Assembly: GCA_021927905.1 (NCBI GenBank) | Contig: BLLK01000069.1 | Coordinates: forward strand, 2,418,001 to 2,482,000 | From: Chaetoceros tenuissimus | Lineage: Eukaryota > Bacillariophyta > Thalassiosirophyceae > Chaetocerotales > Chaetocerotaceae | DNA length: 64,000 nt | Reading direction: 5' to 3' | Shown here: one piece after another, positions 2,021-59,126 of the stretch | How the letters are laid out: every line of letters begins with the position of its first letter | Numbering within the stretch: the first letter of the stretch is position 1 | Translations under genes and position numbers: made by a program | Notes under the pieces: generated by a model | The model's database searches: none | The model's input: the letters and a program-made list of their open reading frames with translations, nothing else | What the model was told of the DNA's origin: nothing

Positions 2021-5000
2021 TTAGAACATGAAATATTTTTGTGCTAATGGTAGCTCACTAAGTGGTTTGCATGTCAATAATTCGCCATCAGCAGTCACTT
2101 GGTAGGTTTCAGGGTCTACCTTGATATCAGGCGTCGCACAATTCAGTTTCATATCAGTCTTCTTCAGATCTCTACATTTCTTGACAGGATAAGTAGTCTT
2201 CATCAAGCCATAAGACTGGACAGTCTCGGAATCAACAGAGAGCTTAGAAACAAATGCTAAAGAACATTTTGCTGCTGAGTGTGCAGATCGAGCAATATAC
2301 TGTGGACGCATCATTACAGGCTGTGGAGTAGGAATACTTGCATTAGGATCTCCCATTTGAGCCCATGCGATTTGTCCAGCTTTAATAACCAAGTTTGGCT
2401 TAGCACCAAAGAAGGCTGGATCCCAGAGACAAAGATCTGCCATTTTACCAACCTCAACAGATCCGATAATTTCAGAAAAGCCATGCGCGATCGCAGGATT
2501 GATTGTATATTTAGCTATGAACAGTTTACAGTAAAGAAGTTAGCACTTGTCTTCCAAAAAATTAGTGAAATAAGTAAACAAAGAAGACTTACCCACGTAA
2601 CGTTTAGCTCTAAAGTTATCAACCGTGGACAAGTTGCCTGTGATACCAGTTGTTTGTTCGTAGCTCTTTAGAAAGATTAAAATAAACTGAGATTGGATAT
2701 CAAGACTAAAAGAAAGAAGTAATAGTCGCCCACTTGAATACTAACCTTATCTTCCTCAATCTGTCCACGTTGTACTTTCATCTTATGAGCAGTCTGCCAA
2801 GTTCTTGTGATGACCTCTCCAACTCTACCCATAGCTTGACTGTCAGATGAGATAATGCTTATTGCACCCATATCATGGAGAATATCCTCGGCAGCAATAG
2901 TCTCTCCACGAATACGAGACTCGGCAAATGCAACATCTTCCTTCAAATTCTTGTCAAGATGGTGACATACCATCAACTAAAGAAAATAATGAATGAGAAA
3001 AGTATCAACAAGACAAAGTTCCCATAAGTACAAAAAACTTACCATATCAAGATGCTCATCAATAGTATTCTTTGTAAATGGTCTGGTTGGGTTTGTTGAT
3101 GATGGGAGCACATTCATTTCGCCACACACTCGGATGATATCAGGAGCATGTCCACCTCCAGCACCTTCGGAGTGGTATGTGTGGATTGTACGTCCCTTGA
3201 AAGCTGCTAGAGATCCTTCGCACATGGTACTCTCATTCAAAGTATCTGTATGAATGTTCACTTGGATATCATGGTCTTCAGCGACACTGAGACAAGTATC
3301 AATTGTACTTGGCGTTGTTCCCCAATCTTCATGCAACTTCAAACCGCATACTCCAGCCTTGATTTGATCAAGCAGTCCATCAGGCTGTGATGCATTCCCC
3401 TTACCTGTAAATCCAAAATTCAAAGGAAATGAATCTGTACTCTGAAGCATCATTTTGATGTGTTCAGGAGACGGGGTACATGTTGTTGCACAAGTTCCAG
3501 TAGCTGGCCCAGTTCCACCTGTTTCCATTATTGGTATTTGCTTTTAAGATGGGCTTTAATTAATGAATAAAAGCTAAGGATTATTTGACTTACCTCCTAG
3601 CAAAGTTGTTAGACCTGATGCAATAGCTTCATCAGCAAGCTGAGAGCAGATAAAATGGACATGTGCATCAATTCCTCCTGCAGTAAGAATCAGTCCTTCT
3701 CCAGCAATTACTTCAGTCTTCAAAATAGTCTATGTTAGACATTCAATGTTGAACCACAAAAAATATTCTGCAAAAGAGAACTTACCGTTACTCCCACATA
3801 GAGCGATGGGTCGACATAATCCATCGTATCAGGATTACCAGCCTTTCCAATCCCAACAATCATCCCACCTTTAATTCCAACATCTGCCTTATAAATTCCA
3901 GAATAATCTAAAATCACTGCATTAGTGATGATTGTATCTACGGCCTCTGAGGCTACCAAACCTGATGCTTGTCCACATCCATCTCTCAACACTTTTCCTC
4001 CTCCAAACTTAACTTCGTCACCATAACATACTCCATCAGGACCAGCACAGTAGTCTTCTTCAATTTCTACCACAAGAGAAGTATCCCCAAGACGTACTCT
4101 GTCTCCTTTTGTTGGTCCAAAAGTCTGCGCATAAGTTTTCTTATCCATGGTAGTTGGTGGTGCACTTGAGATTTCCTTCTGTTCTTCATGACAGAATCCA
4201 AGTGCTGCTATTTTCTCCAGAAAACCTTCTGGTGGGTTGCCTACTTCAACGGCCGCACCCTTCACGCTTTTAGAAGCTTCGCTTGGGTCGCAGAATCCTT
4301 GCTTCATAGCTCCAAGAATTCCATCACCACTAGACGTTGACATAATATCATTATCTTGACAAAGATTATTTCCACCACTGATCACCTTTTTGCCCCCGAT
4401 TGGCACGAGATGAACAGATTTCGTTTCAGAAGGCTCGAAACGAACTGCTGTTCCCGAGCAGATATTGAGTCTTCGTCCATAAGCTGCTTTTCTGTCAAAT
4501 TTCAAGTATGGGTTTGTCTCCACAAAATGATAATGAGATCCAACCTGAACTGGGCGATCACCAGTATTTGTAACTGTGAGAACAATAACATCTTTACCTG
4601 GATTAAGGGTAATCTGCTCATTTCTTGCAGTGAACACATACCCTGGAGTTACAACAGTTGTTTTTCTTTCTTTTTCTTCTTCTGGACTTGGGTAGAATAC
4701 TTTATTCATTGGAACAGGAAGAAAACTTCCATAGAGTGCTGATTTCATGTCTCCAAAGTCGAGTGACACTTTCGAAATTCAAGATACTATCATCAGTATG
4801 ACGAAATCTTCAATATTGTATACATTCAAATACAGATACAAATACCTACCTGGAGAGTGAACAGTAACAAGCTTTGTTCCATCTGGGAAAGTACACTCAA
4901 CTTGCACTTCATGTAGGAGAGCTGGAACCTCAGGCATGACATTCCAGATTCCAAGGAGACGCCGAGATGAGTCCATTAGATCAGCAACAGACTGATCGCC

Positions 5001-19836: not shown

Positions 19837-21345
19837 TTACTCTTGTACTGATTTTTCATGCCAGATATCAAACGAAAAGATTGTTTCGTCGTATTTTGTA
19901 ATGGCTGAGAAATTGACTGGTTGTTTCCCCAATGGTCTCATCATGTCGATCTTCATTCCAAGGGGTAGGTGCAGTTGATAGTTCACTAGATCAATCACAT
20001 GATCAATACTATGAAAAGTGTAAATTTTGTGCGTTTGAAACTTGTACTCGCAAGCAGTCTTGGGATTTCCCAAAATTCGTACTCTTTCTTTCGAAGACTT
20101 GAGATCATTACTCATGAATGTATTTTCGGGGAGAGTCGGAGCAGACATATCAGGCTCTTCTCCTACATTATCAATGCTGACGGTATGACATCCGGCTAAA
20201 ATTGGGGCCAATATAGCTTGCCTTTCCTCACCAAGCTCAAGCCGGATACCAGGTGCAAACTTATCAAATACTCCTTGTAGGAAATCCAGTATTCTGGGTG
20301 GAAATATGATGTTGAATGGCTTCCTGAATATACCTCCAAGTAACACTGTCTCCATAGGAATATACCTTTTGAATTGTCCTTGAATTACAATCTGCCTTTG
20401 AATATTTTGAGTAAAGAGCTCGTTTTGAGTATCAAAGTACTCATCTTGTTTCGCAGGATTCTCACATATTCCTTCAGCAAAGCGTATAAGTGCTCGTCCT
20501 CGGAATACTTCAGTTTCAATTTCAAAAGGTGACCCAATAGGTAAGGAATTGTGTGGGAGTAAGCCAGGGCAAGAGGTTCCTCTAACTGGGCGTACAAAGA
20601 GTGGCTTATACTTGCATTGAGAGATTCGTGATTCATCTATGTTTTCGTCATTATCTACGAAGTCATGTGGTGGAGCTTGCTCAGTCTGCTCTAGCTCGAC
20701 GTTTTGTGTACGCCCAAGTGTATTTGTATTCCAGGAATAAACCGAAAACAAAAACATGATACCAATGAAGAAACAGTCATGGTATTGCAATGTTTGGATA
20801 GATTGATGATTGCTAAGTGTATGACACATTGTCAATAGAAGCATTATCATATTCTTATACTCAGATCTATAAATTTTCACGTTCTCCATCTCTTGACTTC
20901 GCATTGAAACTTTTGTTTCGTCATGCATGTCTGGAAGTAGTACTAGATCAACTAAATCTGTGCTTTGATGAAGGTCATTGCTTGAAGAATTGATTAACGA
21001 TGTATCATTAGAACAAATTTCATCGATATCATGCTCTAATAGTTCAAATGAATTTTCACGTGGGCAGAATCCGAACTTAACAGGTTTGCATGCCTTCCTT
21101 ACAAATGAAAATGGAAGAAATGAAAAGCATGTCTCTGCCGTGGATTCTATGTCTTCCTCATCGTAATGAATTAGATTCGTAGGACTCATAATCATTGATA
21201 CCAATAAAGAAATGCAACCATATCTTGAACATATATTGAAAATCTTTATAGATGCAAGGTGCTTTACGAGTAAGCATTGTGGAATGTGGAATATTTCCAT
21301 CATCCTTAAAAGAAAAAGCGAAGCCCAAGCCATCGTCATGGCCAT
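19837..21345 (-). CDS. DUF1769-like protein with N-terminal hydrophobic segments
   Basis: Single exon, 502 residues, ATG at 21345. The C-terminal half (residues about 245-495) reads like the DUF1769/UPF0590 family: RPVRGTSCPGLLPHNSLPIGSPFEIETEVF, RALIRFAEG, QGQFKRYIPMETVLLGGIF and a conserved end GKQPVNFSAITKYDETIFSFD. That family is found in fungi and algae and has no known activity. The N-terminus has hydrophobic stretches at residues about 1-60, and another at about 185-200 (DCFFIGIMFLFSVYSW), so membrane attachment is likely. An acidic Ser/Asn-rich region separates the two. The family assignment is from memory of the motif pattern. Confidence 0.65.
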   Translation of the reverse strand: MAMTMAWASLFLLRMMEIFHIPQCLLVKHLASIKIFNICSRYGCISLLVSMIMSPTNLIHYDEEDIESTAETCFSFLPFSFVRKACKPVKFGFCPRENSFELLEHDIDEICSNDTSLINSSSNDLHQSTDLVDLVLLPDMHDETKVSMRSQEMENVKIYRSEYKNMIMLLLTMCHTLSNHQSIQTLQYHDCFFIGIMFLFSVYSWNTNTLGRTQNVELEQTEQAPPHDFVDNDENIDESRISQCKYKPLFVRPVRGTSCPGLLPHNSLPIGSPFEIETEVFRGRALIRFAEGICENPAKQDEYFDTQNELFTQNIQRQIVIQGQFKRYIPMETVLLGGIFRKPFNIIFPPRILDFLQGVFDKFAPGIRLELGEERQAILAPILAGCHTVSIDNVGEEPDMSAPTLPENTFMSNDLKSSKERVRILGNPKTACEYKFQTHKIYTFHSIDHVIDLVNYQLHLPLGMKIDMMRPLGKQPVNFSAITKYDETIFSFDIWHEKSVQE

Positions 21346-51764: not shown

Positions 51765-54700
51765 ATGGTTTCTTTTGTTGTCTACTTGTGCTTCCTTCAT
51801 CCATCTTTAACATTCATAGTACACTTTACGCACACCAATGGTAGAAATAGAGACGATACAATCTCAAAACTTACTGTAAGAATGAGCGGAGATGATCAAG
51901 ATAACCAGATCCCTAAAACACTAAAGGCGACGAATTGGTCAAGAATTCATGAAATTGCCAAGAATAATGAGTTCCTTCGGAAACCAGCCCAAGGAAGACC
52001 AAACCTGGATGAGGATGATAACCCTACTGCACAAATTCCTCAGAATGAAGCTAGGAAAGGAATATTACGGCAGACATCTACAAATAATCTGCGGGATGCA
52101 GGAAGAAATGTGAAAGGCGAAGTACGGAGAAAATCAACAACTTTTACAGGGGTCATACCGCGGCGCAATTCAGGTCTGTACTCTTTGGAGGAGGACTCAC
52201 AAGAGAAATCTAAAACTATGGACAACAAATCAGGGCTGAAACCATTTTGGGGCATAAGAATACCGTCTACCATGAATTACTCGGCATTTGAAGCTGAAAG
52301 CGTGGCTAATAGCCAGGGGAGTGCAAGTCGTCGAAGTGGTGGTGGGGACATTACTTCTCTTGGGCAAATCATTCCCTGTTGTCGTCCTTCCGAATGGTTG
52401 CTACACATGATGAATAGGATCGTTATCAACAAATATTGGCGAATCTTTGTGACCATTTTGGATGCCATCCTTTTGTTTGGGTCGAGTATCCGTGACCTTT
52501 TCTGTCCGAAAAAAATCGATTTAGCGTTTGATATAATCTTTCTACTGACTATTGCGGTTTTGCTAGTGGATGTCATAATTCAAAGTCACTTGGTACCAAA
52601 CTATTTCATCTTTAAGATTAAAAAACGAAGAAGAAACGCTGAAGAAAAGAAGTCAGTGATAGGGAAATCAGGTCGACAGATTACTATGAATGGTCAATCT
52701 GGTCATGGTAGCACTACTGGTCGTATGAGAGGAGTGGCATCTGATTTCGTAGATGCGGAAGAAGGCAGCATCTCTATAAAGGGAAGTCGGGAGTTTTCAT
52801 TTGATGGGATTAAGTTTGGGGGGTTCCTCTTCTGGCTGGATATTATTAGTGCATTTACACTATTGTTTGATGTCTCGCTCATCAATCCCTTGCTTAGAAA
52901 CACTCGCACCTATGCTATTTCCCTCGATAGTAGTGGCATACCGGTAAGTAGCTATTGGTACTATTCTTTTTTAAAGTCGATTCCGGAATTAATCTTTAGA
53001 GTTTTTCTTAGAAACATGGGAATCATTTGTTCGAAATGAATAATTTCTTCGATTTCCGTTGCTTCAATACTTATGAAAGATGGTATTTTCTCATTGTAGT
53101 CTTAAGAACTCCGCGCATTGCTAGAGTAATGCAATCATCGGGGATAATATCTTTGGTACTTTGGAATTTGCAGAGTATACAAAATTTTCTCACGGCACGA
53201 AAAATCAAAAAGATGAACAGGGATAGTGCGGAGTCAACCATTGGTGATAATAAGCAATCAAAAAAAGGAAAGAATGAAACAGAAGGTCAGCAACAGGGAC
53301 TGTTGTCATCAACTAACAGTGAAAAAAGCAACTTAAGAGGCTCGAATCACATTACATCAAAAAGAAAATTGGACAAAATGAGTCAATTTATTCAAAATCG
53401 CAGCTCTATCGTCGAAAGAAATGTGCCTCAAAACGCAAAAAATGCACAATCCGCAAGAGGAATCAGTAAGGATGCTTTCGATATCATCACAACCAAATCT
53501 ACAATGTCGAGATCGAGAAGGCGTAAAAAGAGAAGAAGGGAATCAACTCAAGTTGGAAAAGAAATGCATGAGCTTACAGTGAGACTAGTAGTGGTTGGAT
53601 GCATGATTGCTATTGCATTGAGTTCCCTTTTATCAAATCATGACAGGGGGCTCTACGTGCCATCTTATCTACTAGTAGCTCACAATATGTTGACTTCTCT
53701 GTCTTCGCTTAATAATAGCAATATCAGTCTTCAGGATACTGTTGATAAACTTGAACTCGGAAACTCTAAAGTTCTGTCATACACGTTTGGAAATCAAGCT
53801 TACTTTATTGATCAGAATAATAGTCTTCGCGACCGCGAAATGATCAATGTCATCATTCGATGTGACGACGGTTTTTCTGATAATGAAAATGTGGAATGTC
53901 AGAACACCGAAGCAACTGTCGACATCAGGTTTTTTATCTGTGAAGGAGCAAAATACAACTTGCTCCTTGTATTTTTCATAATGATTACATGGTACATTGC
54001 TGTTTCAAGTTTTGCAGGGCCAATCACTCATCTAATTGTCATTCCAATCGAAAGAATGATCAAGATTCTCCGCATGCTGGTATCCGATCCTCTTGGATAC
54101 CAAAGTTCTGAGAAGTACAAAGAGTTTGTTGATGAAAGTGAGGAACTTGGAACAAACTCAAAATGGAACAAAGAAATATTGGAGGGAATGGAAACGTAAG
54201 TGAAAACATGACGATTTGTTCACGTATGTATCATCGCCTAATCTCTTCTTGTCGGTAGGTCTTTTCTCATGTCTACTATCCTTCGGATTGGTTCTTTAAT
54301 GAAAGTAGGATTTGGAGAAGCTGGTGCGAAAATTATCCGCCAAAGTTTGAATAAATCAAATGAAAGCGAAGATGCGAACACTAATGTTTCGTGTATATTC
54401 CTGTTTTGTGATATTCGACATTTCACTGATGCAACTGAATGTTTACGTGAAGAGGTTTTTGTTTTCACGAACAAAATTGCTGAGGTTGTACATTCGCTTT
54501 GTCATAGCTATGGTGGTGAGTACTAGAAAGTATTCGAGAAGACGGACTAGAGTTATATTCTGACAAACTCATATTTTCAATATTATAGGGAGTGCGAACA
54601 AAAATATTGGGGATGCGTTTCTAGTATCATGGCTTTTAAATGAAAACACTATGGAAAAAAAGAAAGGGAAGAGAATGAGGAAATTGTCCATGAATAGTAC

Positions 54701-55847
54701 TGTACCTGGACTTCAAGCAACAAACCACCAGGCAGACAAGGCTCTTCTAGCTGTAGTGAAGATCATCATTGCATTGAATTATGAATCATTTTTTGTGGAT
54801 GAGCTTAGTGCTGAAACCAGTAAAAGGTTGCAAGAAAAGTTTCCTCGTAGCTCAGGCCCTCTTGTTCAAATGGGATTTGGTTTGCATGCAGGAAGAGCAG
54901 TTCAGGGAGCAATTGGATCACATCGAAAGCTAGATGCTACATATATATCAAATGCTGTAGAACAGGCAGAGTACCTCGAGTCTAGCACGAAGCGGTATGG
55001 AGTCAAATTGCTCATGTCTGGAGAATTCTACCGCCTCCTAACACCTGGTAATAGACGTAGATGTCGACAAATTGACCAAGTCTTCTTTCGTGATGATGAT
55101 GGAGATGAATACGAAGAACCTCCAGACCCATTTAACTTTGAGAGGATGGAGCTTTACACATATGACATTGATGTTAATTTTGTGGTTCATCCTCCAAATT
55201 CGGGATATTCAAAAAGAGAAACGCCTGGAAATTCTACAACTTGGCAGGAAGCCAGTGAAAGATCCAAGAATTCGGTCGAAAGAACATCTATGAAAACAGA
55301 TCTTCAGGCAATGACAATAGCTATGGGTCTATCTGCTTCTATGAGACCTATTAAAAGTTCTCATGTAGTTGGACAAAGTGGAGCTGATAACTCTGCTGCA
55401 AAGGATCGTGATACCAAAGGTCGTAGGTGGAGCACGAGTATTTGGAACAATATCAATTCTTCAAAATACAGAAGCTCGATGGAACGCGTGGTCAGTAGTC
55501 AAGTATCACATGAATCTTACTCTGGAAATGAGAATGACTACGATGATTCGATTGAACATTTGGAGGGAATCTTGCTTCTTCCAACAGAAAAATGCAAGTA
55601 CTCTCCGTCGATTTGGCTCTCTGAAGATATGAGGATAGTTCGTGGAAGATTTGCTGATGGCCAATTCTTCCAGCAATTCAACATTGGGCTTCAGCATTAC
55701 TTCAATGGAGAGTGGGATGAAGCTAGAAATTGTTTGGAGTCTGTAGATGAGAAAATAATTGATGGTCCTGCTAGATATTTCCTTGAAAAGATGCAGAAAT
55801 CTAATTTTGTACCACCACGAGGATTCACTGGGTGGAGTGAAGCATAG
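51765..55847 (+). CDS. Class III nucleotide cyclase fused to voltage-sensor-like membrane domain
   Basis: Four exons (51765-52943, 53012-54195, 54259-54515, 54589-55847) close in frame to 1292 residues. The true ATG may be 51882. After a Ser/basic leader there are four hydrophobic segments: residues about 225-246 (FVTILDAILLFGSSI), 252-275, 350-370 and 415-445. The last reads VLRTPRIARVMQ, with Arg every third position as in S4 voltage sensors. A pore helix was not seen. A basic linker, a single span (TVRLVVVGCMIAIALSSLL), about 110 extracellular residues and another span (LLLVFFIMITWYIAV) follow. The cyclase domain starts near residue 835: FLFCDIRHFT and NKNIGDAFLVSW carry the two metal Asp residues and the adenine Lys. 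The stretch LDATYISNAVEQAEYLES lacks the Asn and Arg expected there. The C-terminal 250 residues end in a helical SRG-like region. Confidence 0.85.
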
Positions 55848-55886: not shown

Positions 55887-58622
55887 TTAAGCTTTCTCAA
55901 AAAACTCCTTCACGTTTGCTGAGTGTTCTGGAATTTTGTTGTAACTTTCAAATAGATTATAATTCACCCGTTTTAATGTTCTCAGGACATGGTTCTGAAC
56001 TAGGCCATTTTCACATGCTGCCTGGAATATTTCTTTCGATAAGCGCAATGCTACATCATGAGATGTGGGAGCAATAAGTTCACAGCATAGAAGCATTTGC
56101 ACAAAGACATAAGGAGTTAAGATCACGTCTTCGGCAAGAAGTCTGTTGTTGTAAATATCTATGGCAATCTCAAGTGCATCAGGCTTATCCTCCTCAACCA
56201 CGGTCCCTGCGCATGCTTTTATGACTGCTATATAAAAAAAAAGTTTCTCTCGATTCTCATTCTCAGAGCTCATTTCCTGTGGAAGTCGTTCCTGTATCCT
56301 TTCTAAGAATTTATAGCAATTATGTGCTGCCTTTGGTTCACCCAAAGATGCAGCCTTTGCATAATTCTCTAAAGTAGATTGCTTGGCTCTAGCCATTAGA
56401 GATGACGAAACAGAACTATTGCCATTTATTATACGACTCATTTCCATCCTGCTTAGAATTTCTTCCGCTATTGTTCCAGACTTTCTTGACTTGGTTTCTC
56501 CCCATATTCGAATTAGACGATAACAGCAAAATTCATTTTTTGCAGAAGGAATTTCCTGTAGAAGTTTGTCTAGAATTCCCGTAGCATACCTTGCATCGGA
56601 AGTTGTTACAATATTTTTGCTGTCGACGGCAATAGCTAGAAGGCAGAAGATTGCATTATAATAGCAATTCTTGGAGGGATACATTGGAGACCATTGAATC
56701 AAATTGTCAGAAAGAGATGCTTCTCTTGTCAACTCCATTTTTCCAAGGAGATTTTTTGCTTTCCTAAACCTGTCCATGTCAAATGTAGCTGTGAAAGCCT
56801 TATGGAGATCATCAAGAATGATGCAATCTACTTTGGACAAATTTATCAGAGATTTGTCATTATCAAAAAGTTTTTCATATTCATCTTTTCCTAACAATCT
56901 TGTCATCGTATCATCGACTCGGTCGATGTATTCGTCGATTACGTTAGGACCAACCGCGATCAAGTTGAGCAGCATTGCCCTATAAGGATAACTTAGAGGA
57001 AGATCAATACAATCACTCTTCTTTTCTTTACCCTCCTGAGGATGGGTATTTTTAGAGTCAGGACTCAATGATTGATTGGCATTTGGTCTCCATCCAGAGT
57101 TCACCTCCTTTTCCATTATCTTTAGGATCTCATCTGCAGAATCTAATGCCTGTACTTTAACATCAGTGTTGCTGCCAATACCGCGGAAACCAGATATTGC
57201 AAGGCCGTATGTTTTAGTTGTGGGAACGCAGATTGTTTTATCCGTATTGCTGTGGACATCTGTGGTCTCCTCCTTTGTTTCCTTGAATTCCTTCATCTGA
57301 TCAATCATGTCTTTAATCAAGTGAACATTCTTCTTAACCTCATTGAGATCGGACGACTGGTTATAAAACTCAATCATACGATGGTAAATGAGTGTGCTTG
57401 GTATTACGTTTGGATTGCCTGAATTATGGCTTTCTTTCAAAAGCTTGAATGCATCCTCAATAACTGTTGTCATTGCCTCTACGTCGGAGTGCCTCCAGTT
57501 TTGGCAGTTAGTGAAGATACCGTCATAAAGAAGTGTGTTTGCAGTAAAATCTTGAGATAGATGTGCATTTAATTCGTGCAATGAGCTACTCCAATTCTTA
57601 TCATCGTCGAAAGGTTCAAAATCAGTATCGGATTTCCTATTGAAAATCCAACTCAGAAATCCTTGCGACTCATTTCCCGTGGAGTGGGCTCTCTTTTCAT
57701 TCTTTGTTGTAGACATTTCACTGGAATTCGATTCTAAGCAAAACTTGATGAGTTCGTGTCTTTGTCTTCTAATATTTTCTAGTAAAGTGATCAATTTCAA
57801 TGCGTTAGCAGGTGGCAAAGGAAGCTCTTTTTTATGCTTTGTCCACGTATCTGCATTTTTAAACCATCCCCAGCCTGCAATTATAAATCTAAGCTTGGCA
57901 CAAATATTTTTGTATAAGTTTTCTGTCTTGATTAAATTCCTTGTGACTACAACAGGGTTCATGTTCATGATGGATTTGTCATCTGCATCTACTTTCATAC
58001 CAAGATCTTTTTCAAGTTCTTTCAATAAGCCTTGAACTTCTCCTTCTAATTCGAGCCACCTCTGCACTCGCTCATTTATATATTTTATACTCTCAGCATT
58101 TTTCGAATTATATTTTCGATGATGACTAGTAGAGTGATCTAAGCTATCTTCTGTTAGTGAAGAATCAAAGTTGTCATTTTCAAGAGGAAAAATATCTGAG
58201 GAGGTAGCGCTCGCCCTATCAGAAGATTCAATAATTGACCTCTTCCCTTTCCTTTTCCCTCTGCGTGAATTTCGTCTTTTATTTCTTCTACTTTCGCCGT
58301 CTAACCCCTTGCCATTCCCTTTTTGATCTCGGTGTCTATTGTTTCTTTTCTTCAAGTATGCAGATGGTATCCCGGTGAAATTATCATCTTTCCTGGACAT
58401 TTGACGCGTATCTATCACAAAGAACCTTTTGCTATCCATATTCTTCTGAAATTTATTTTGATCAACAGTAGATATGGGTGATATCAGTGATGAACGCGAC
58501 AGAAGAATGGATGACATTTGTCGAAATTGCGCATGATGGAATGATCCAAATAAAGAAGATTGTGATCTTATAAGAGCATTCCGTAACTTTCTCCCATCTG
58601 TGCGCAAAGTTTTTCTCAGCAT
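55887..58622 (-). CDS. Large putative mitochondrial helical-repeat (PPR-like) protein
   Basis: Single exon, 911 residues, ATG at 58622. The N-terminus (LRKTLRTDGRKLRNALIRSQSS) is basic and amphipathic without acids, fitting a mitochondrial presequence. Residues about 85-130 are an extremely basic stretch (RRNKRRNSRRGKRKGKR). The rest is made of paired helices with spacing like degenerate pentatricopeptide repeats, such as STLIYHRMIEFYNQSSDLNEVKKN, YRAMLLNLIAVGPNVIDEY, NCYYNAIFCLLAIAVDSKN and TPYVFVQMLLCCELI. Similar diatom proteins are often annotated PPR-like and act in organelle RNA processing. I see no catalytic domain. The repeat assignment is by eye. Confidence 0.65.
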   Translation of the reverse strand: MLRKTLRTDGRKLRNALIRSQSSLFGSFHHAQFRQMSSILLSRSSLISPISTVDQNKFQKNMDSKRFFVIDTRQMSRKDDNFTGIPSAYLKKRNNRHRDQKGNGKGLDGESRRNKRRNSRRGKRKGKRSIIESSDRASATSSDIFPLENDNFDSSLTEDSLDHSTSHHRKYNSKNAESIKYINERVQRWLELEGEVQGLLKELEKDLGMKVDADDKSIMNMNPVVVTRNLIKTENLYKNICAKLRFIIAGWGWFKNADTWTKHKKELPLPPANALKLITLLENIRRQRHELIKFCLESNSSEMSTTKNEKRAHSTGNESQGFLSWIFNRKSDTDFEPFDDDKNWSSSLHELNAHLSQDFTANTLLYDGIFTNCQNWRHSDVEAMTTVIEDAFKLLKESHNSGNPNVIPSTLIYHRMIEFYNQSSDLNEVKKNVHLIKDMIDQMKEFKETKEETTDVHSNTDKTICVPTTKTYGLAISGFRGIGSNTDVKVQALDSADEILKIMEKEVNSGWRPNANQSLSPDSKNTHPQEGKEKKSDCIDLPLSYPYRAMLLNLIAVGPNVIDEYIDRVDDTMTRLLGKDEYEKLFDNDKSLINLSKVDCIILDDLHKAFTATFDMDRFRKAKNLLGKMELTREASLSDNLIQWSPMYPSKNCYYNAIFCLLAIAVDSKNIVTTSDARYATGILDKLLQEIPSAKNEFCCYRLIRIWGETKSRKSGTIAEEILSRMEMSRIINGNSSVSSSLMARAKQSTLENYAKAASLGEPKAAHNCYKFLERIQERLPQEMSSENENREKLFFYIAVIKACAGTVVEEDKPDALEIAIDIYNNRLLAEDVILTPYVFVQMLLCCELIAPTSHDVALRLSKEIFQAACENGLVQNHVLRTLKRVNYNLFESYNKIPEHSANVKEFFEKA

Positions 58623-59126
58623 ATTACCCTAGTGAAGCATATATACATGAAAGCTTTGTAAAAGATGTCTTGTAATGATGCAATAAATAGTATAGATCAT
58701 TCAAAAGAAAAATAAATGAAAGGTCTGTGATAGTCATCGTATCCACAAACCCCTTTCGCTTGGGAGAAAAGGATTCTGTCATCTGACTAAAATAGACTGT
58801 GAGGACATTTATTTTTTGAAATCCAAATGAAACGGCTTTTGCCTTGGACGCAACACGCAACACGCAACAGACAATCAATTAATGTAATCAACGTAATTGA
58901 CTCAAGTTCGTTGGTCACACAACACATTTGCAACAAAAGCAGGTGTGACGATCTTGTAGAAAAGGAAAATAACGGATAACTTCTATATCTGGCCAGAAGC
59001 AAGACTTGAGAAATCTACGAGAACGAGATCAAAACGATCATATTCAAGTCTTGCAATCAGGGCCTTTGATTTGCATAAAGGTTTCAACTACATTTTAAAC
59101 TCAACAAATAAAGCAAAAGAAGAGCA
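58623..59126. promoter_or_regulatory. Divergent intergenic region
   Basis: 504 bp between the PPR-like gene and the Ser/Arg-rich gene, in divergent orientation. A short ACACGCAACACGCAAC direct repeat lies near 58850-58866. Nothing else was recognised. Confidence 0.35.

Follow-up and report, generated by a model that had tools for sequence, protein, structure and literature searches.

A predicted pore-less voltage-sensor/cyclase fusion in the diatom Chaetoceros tenuissimus retains one half of a class III cyclase active site

The gene considered here (the focal gene) lies at positions 51765-55847 (+) of a 64,000-nucleotide window of Chaetoceros tenuissimus DNA (GenBank assembly GCA_021927905.1, contig BLLK01000069.1, positions 2,418,001 to 2,482,000 of the forward strand). 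Its model of four exons specifies a 1292-aa product, in which four helices of the voltage-sensor type (S1-S4) are followed by two further membrane spans (TM5 and TM6) separated by a loop, and then by a class III cyclase domain. The cyclase domain keeps both metal-binding Asp residues and has lost both transition-state residues, and two paralogs in the same genome show the reverse pattern. We tentatively read the focal protein as a diverged, pore-less member of its family, and as one that most likely serves as the C1-like, metal-donating partner of a paralog such as C18 in a heterodimer, because the metal half of its active site is kept and the transition-state half is lost. How protists turn membrane potential into cAMP is an open question, and the loss of opposite active-site halves in different paralogs of a single diatom provides a concrete pairing scheme.

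At least six family genes were found in the 41,027,912 bases (68 contigs) of the genome with the focal protein and one paralog, C32, as queries: the focal gene, C54b (C54:3124195-3127575), C44, C32, C18 and C14. The paralog gene models are our own, and that of C14 is incomplete. In the focal protein, Guanylate_cyc (PF00211) was the sole Pfam family above its cut-off (28.5 bits, cut-off 21.9). The catalytic residues are written here as a string of six (metal Asp, Lys, metal Asp, purine Asp, Asn, Arg), with roles as described in PMC6592433 and PMC4174876, and were read from a cyclase alignment that includes C14 and the bacterial relatives L026 and L027 described below, and leaves out L029 and L028. 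The focal protein reads D K D D E Y and C54b reads D K D D E F; the Arg alone has been lost from C44 (D K D D N F). In C18 (D K N D N R) the second metal Asp is lost, in C14 (G K A D N R) both are lost, and all six residues are kept in C32, L026 and L027 (D K D D N R). At the position matching the focal Asn/Arg loss, the photoactivated adenylyl cyclase 5mbg reads VNVAAR, and the pattern [VI]Nx[AST][AS]R was matched in all eight other cyclase loci examined, taken as the best 8 of 27 PF00211 matches in the genome (the 27 include C44 and C54b). At E <= 1, Guanylate_cyc was absent from the Pfam results for L027, although all six residues are present in its aligned cyclase domain. In an unrooted ten-row tree that includes L028, and in which three of the seven inner forks are open, the focal gene, C54b and C44 form a clade with support of 99/98, and C18 and C14 a second with support of 100/99. 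The metal Asp residues are kept and the Asn/Arg pair is damaged in the first clade, the reverse holds in the second, and none of the six genome paralogs has losses in both active-site halves.

A homodimer of the focal protein should be poorly active, as both transition-state residues are lost. A preliminary description of this stretch, made from the letters alone, had proposed either cAMP or cGMP as the output; cAMP is expected as the product, since the Lys/Asp purine pair is of the ATP type, and cGMP is less likely. In the proposed mechanism, a conformational signal from an S1-S4-like bundle would travel via TM5-TM6 and then a linker helix until it reaches the class III cyclase, a cytosolic domain of the type that makes cAMP; the focal copy would bring its retained metal-binding half-site, the transition-state half being gone, and a partner such as C18 would supply the transition-state residues together with a long S4 ladder. 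In Toxoplasma TgATPaseP-GC (GC1/GC2) and mammalian tmAC (C1/C2), the cited excerpts likewise have one domain giving the metal Asp and the other the Asn/Arg (PMC6592433, PMC4174876); in those proteins a single polypeptide carries the two halves, whereas the diatom halves would be separate genes. A broader proposal, made with low confidence, is that in diatoms a single voltage-sensing adenylyl cyclase gave rise to two lineages of obligate partners, each encoded by its own genes, with the focal gene, C54b and C44 carrying the metal half and C18 and C14 the transition-state half, and that long and reduced sensors are mixed in each complex, which would make voltage sensitivity dependent on pairing. 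The focal protein could instead be a catalytically dead or regulatory pseudo-cyclase, which would bind and tune C44 or C32 and give no working half-site. The long stem shared with C54b and the absence of the two transition-state residues are consistent with such a protein; however, the focal gene and C54b have each kept the two metal Asp and the two purine residues, a pattern that random decay would not favor, and this alternative appears unlikely.

The four hydrophobic segments of the preliminary description are borne out by hydropathy and homology as S1-S4-like helices, and its RTPRIAR motif is indeed present at aa 425-431. The Arg triplet was rejected as stand-alone evidence of a voltage sensor, as RxxRxxR occurred in 33% of 2000 shuffles of the focal protein; because the motif alone is weak, the real evidence lies in voltage-sensor homology. 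A family profile of the voltage-sensing domain (VSD) was built from six canonical members (L026, L027, L029, C44, C32 and C18), with the focal gene left out. Against this profile the focal protein scored 28.6 bits, with a best stretch of 26.2 bits at aa 217-375 (S1-S3), compared to 8.7 bits for the best shuffle (947 of 1000 reported) and 9.1 bits for the best block shuffle (297 of 300 reported). C54b scored 35.2 bits in a match extending through S4, and C14, of which two joined pieces were scored apart, 19.5 bits. The match of the focal protein stops short of S4; for this helix, the close paralog C54b is the only sequence with which an alignment was obtained (BLAST over S3-S4, 23% identity, E 2e-4 with the database size set at 20,000 letters).

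The uninterrupted S4 ladder of the focal protein, with three Arg, is the shortest of the seven measured: C54b and L026 have four, L027 five, C18 seven, and C32 and C44 eight basic residues each. This count leaves out L029, L028 and C14, and the yardstick of canonical length is our own choice; the S4 helix of L026 and L027 carries further Arg beyond a four-residue step. The incomplete C14 model was also left out of the first family alignment and the six-member profile, and is present in the cyclase alignment and the tree. The S2 FxxE motif and the S3 Asp form the charge-transfer motif, as in Shaker. By eye, FxxE is found in all seven canonical relatives and is LxxD in the focal gene and C54b; the focal protein keeps the S3 Asp (D359) and an acid in S2 (D269), with the S2 Phe changed to Leu. 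Judged by its sequence, the S1-S4 region of the focal gene is a voltage-sensor-type domain that is reduced relative to canonical members.

Direct control of the output by membrane potential, as put forward in the preliminary description, is weakened by the reduction of the S4 ladder and of the S2 FxxE motif. Three S4 Arg suffice for voltage sensing in the Hv1 proton channel, so the claim of voltage sensing by the focal protein is weakened, although it may still sense voltage, and a voltage-gated homodimeric cyclase could be useful even at the low activity expected without Asn/Arg. The S4-like RTPRIAR, the retained S2 and S3 acids and the resemblance of the family to voltage sensors would all suit such a homodimer, but its ladder of three against the seven to eight of the canonical diatom paralogs, the lost Phe of S2 FxxE and the loss of both transition-state residues make it improbable.

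As a gene model, the focal gene is a single four-exon fusion running from the voltage sensor to the cyclase. The exon number and coordinates of the preliminary description stand: the three introns (68, 63 and 73 bp) are all GT-AG with consensus-like donors (GTAAGT, GTAAGT and GTGAGT, respectively). Alternative in-frame splice pairs exist for introns 1 and 3, where the pairs with GTAAGT and GTGAGT donors were chosen, and the chosen exon 1-2 junction adds a hydrophobic S4 start that is alignable to C54b. The start codon is ambiguous between M1 and M40 (the latter at 51882). Two separate genes were rejected, as C44 and three bacterial open reading frames (ORFs) run unbroken from voltage sensor to cyclase. 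The fusion is taken to be real because C44 has a single open frame of 757 codons that spans all of its parts, from the voltage sensor through TM5-loop-TM6 to the cyclase.

Three of the paralogs have features of their own. C32 (L023, reverse strand) carries GAF and PDEase_I domains preceding its voltage-sensor/cyclase region, which would place cyclic-nucleotide synthesis and breakdown in one predicted protein. An IQ-like stretch that scores below threshold (PF24609, 14.2 bits; PF00612, 10.8 bits) lies in the insert that follows S4 in C54b (L021) and is a possible calmodulin site. The S4 region of C14 (L024) is degraded in appearance.

Outside of the diatom, four loci (L026, L027, L028 and L029) were obtained from 44 matching stretches in a scan of genome contigs, and a scan of viral contigs, in which 97 stretches matched a pattern, gave no relatives. 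L026, L027 and L029 are single uninterrupted ORFs on contigs of 121,564, 177,303 and 35,692 bases from metagenome-assembled genomes (MAGs) of Candidatus Poribacteria, and their proteins match the family query over residues 29-685 or 35-688. The gene was present in 3 of 84 genomes of a set from this phylum, the same three as first found. In L026 and L027 it lies between a gene for a solute-binding protein and genes for two permeases and an ATPase (Pfam), and the gene order of L029, judged by ORFs, is identical; this operon context suggests that membrane potential or uptake may be linked to cAMP in Poribacteria. These proteins have S1-S4, TM5-loop-TM6 and the cyclase in common with the focal protein, and their C-terminal ends are similar by eye. 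They differ from it in the S2 FxxE, a longer S4 ladder, uninterrupted ORFs and location in ABC importer operons, and L026 and L027 also in having all six catalytic residues (L029 is outside that alignment). The Poribacteria members extend the family beyond its published range, "Stramenopiles and Alveolates"; the tree, being unrooted, gives no direction for any transfer. L028 was set aside as a bacterial relative, its gene on a Verrucomicrobiaceae-labelled contig having an intron-broken appearance; the contig is probably eukaryotic and binned into a bacterial MAG, and L028 was used in two alignments and the tree only.

The structure of the S1-S4 region of L027 was predicted with a mean pLDDT of 71.2. 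In a Foldseek search with this model, 49 of the best 50 of 152 matches at E <= 10 were, by title, voltage-gated channels or an isolated voltage-sensing domain. The viral models, used as a contrast, gave 81 matches at E <= 10, with a highest probability of 0.44 among the 50 listed. The S1-S4 domain of the family is voltage-sensor-like as judged from these matches and its sequence.

The preliminary description had seen no pore between the voltage sensor and the cyclase, and none was found: of the two profiles it named as a check, Guanylate_cyc matched the focal protein and Ion_trans had no Pfam match there. Four of seven members scanned (C44, C32, L026 and L027) did match Ion_trans below E 1e-3, with only L026 passing the curated cut-off (25.6 vs 25). 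These matches span only positions 2-129 of the 241-position model, ending at 112, 116, 123 and 129, i.e., before the pore half. With no match in the focal gene and first-half matches only in its relatives, a hidden pore was rejected, and the focal protein appears to be pore-less on the basis of the absent profile match. The two-span module with a loop noted in the preliminary description is present, and the 106-residue loop would face outward, since four helices precede TM5 and the cyclase is cytosolic. A ligand receptor, with this loop as its sensor and the S1-S4 bundle mainly as a membrane anchor, would be in keeping with the three NxS/T sites of the loop, with its variation in length and sequence between members and with the solute-binding protein gene adjoining the bacterial relatives, but Pfam detected no known domain in the focal loop, the one model that covers a loop (L027, from S1 to beyond TM6) is unusable at a mean pLDDT of 32.4, and the canonical paralogs keep a long S4 ladder, leaving this explanation little probability.

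A number of observations weigh against the reading of the focal protein as a reduced-sensor heterodimer subunit. The structural model of the VSD is that of the bacterial relative L027 rather than that of the focal protein, and its Foldseek matches, with probabilities up to 0.99, have a best E of 0.16, with none at E <= 0.001 among the matches listed. A profile search of the PDB listed 13 sequences, every one at E >= 1, of which 11 were Shaker, Kv1.2 or Ci-VSP. Three S4 Arg can be enough for a voltage sensor, as in Hv1, and the uninterrupted ladders of the bacterial relatives L026 and L027 have only four to five residues. In the tree, C14 is a long branch, and its clade with C18 is less sure than the support implies; the stem common to the focal gene and C54b is also long, at 1.39 changes per column, and relaxed constraint would also produce such a stem. 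C44 keeps the Asn, so the loss is graded within its clade. Finally, C32 is complete and could act alone, in which case the other paralogs would be regulatory.

The comparisons with published systems that follow draw on excerpts of the cited papers. The architecture itself has been in print since 2025, when PPTG_13136 and PPTG_13761 of Phytophthora parasitica were described as voltage-sensor/cyclase proteins without pore-helix homology, for which further functional characterisation is still required (PMC12223298). A voltage sensor and cyclase without a pore are common to these, as published, and the focal protein; the focal gene differs in its reduced S4 and has no Ion_trans match. The preliminary description had drawn a parallel with ciliates and apicomplexans, which holds for the fusion of a voltage-sensor-type domain to a class III cyclase; however, a K+ channel pore is reported for the channel-adenylyl cyclases of Paramecium, Tetrahymena and Plasmodium (Weber et al. 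2004, cited in PMC10651576 and PMC12223298), where the focal protein has two spans and a 106-residue loop without a pore match, and the Phytophthora and Poribacteria proteins fit better. A figure in PMC10651576 is said to cover all VSD proteins reported to 2023, and the sole cyclase noted in that excerpt is the pore-bearing one. Diatom cyclases are also on record: adenylate cyclase occurs in four diatoms (PMC3727952), and the bifunctional GC/PDE of Seminavis robusta has two predicted spans, a proposed extracellular domain and a PDE domain, with voltage-sensor helices not mentioned in the excerpt (PMC4726125). The present account adds a reduced form of the sensor, an active site kept in one half only and a scheme of pairing; no description of the reciprocal loss or of bacterial members was found in the excerpts consulted from one open-access library, which is no proof that they are unpublished. 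The Ci-VSP phosphatase is not known to have a TM5-TM6 module. It shares with the focal protein a pore-less voltage sensor coupled to an enzyme, and the enzyme differs (PMC10651576).

Table 1. Features of the focal gene (window coordinates) and the operons of its bacterial relatives (contig coordinates).
Feature	Position	Strand	Residues and remarks
Exon 1	51765..52943	+	aa 1-393; N-terminal region and S1-S3
S1-like helix	52431..52493	+	aa 223-243; profile match
S2-like helix	52521..52583	+	aa 253-273; L266 and D269 at FxxE site of canonical relatives
S3-like helix	52818..52883	+	aa 352-373; conserved D359
Exon 2	53012..54195	+	aa 394-787; S4, basic insert, TM5, loop, TM6, linker helix
S4-like helix	53081..53161	+	aa 417-443; R425/R428/R431, then Q434
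TM5	53573..53632	+	aa 581-600; hydropathy, alignment
Loop	53633..53950	+	aa 601-706; three NxS/T sites, three Cys
TM6	53954..54016	+	aa 708-728
Exon 3	54259..54515	+	stretch preceding cyclase and initial part of cyclase
Class III cyclase domain	54383..55175	+	aa 830-1069; intron 54516-54588 inside; Pfam, alignment
Metal Asp D839	54410..54412	+	alignment
Exon 4	54589..55847	+	remaining cyclase and C-terminal region, including stop
Purine Lys K878 and metal Asp D882	54600..54614	+	alignment
Purine Asp D989	54933..54935	+	alignment
Lost transition-state pair	54960..54974	+	E998 for Asn, Y1002 for Arg
C-terminal element	55671..55847	+	aa 1235-1292; similar ends in Poribacteria proteins (by eye)
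ABC importer operons	L026:2317-9391, L027:2391-9500, L029:2384-9517		

Both metal Asp residues of the cyclase in Table 1 had been noted in the preliminary description. The GC content of the window is 36-41% in 2-kb blocks. A 913-aa open frame at 55890-58628 (-) converges on the 3' end of the focal gene and has no Pfam family at E <= 0.001. Elsewhere in the window, positions 3633-3971 (+) match the Rfam 5' ureB sRNA family (52.7 bits) antisense to a urease gene at 3738-4778 (-); this match is most likely due to conservation of the urease coding sequence rather than to an RNA gene.

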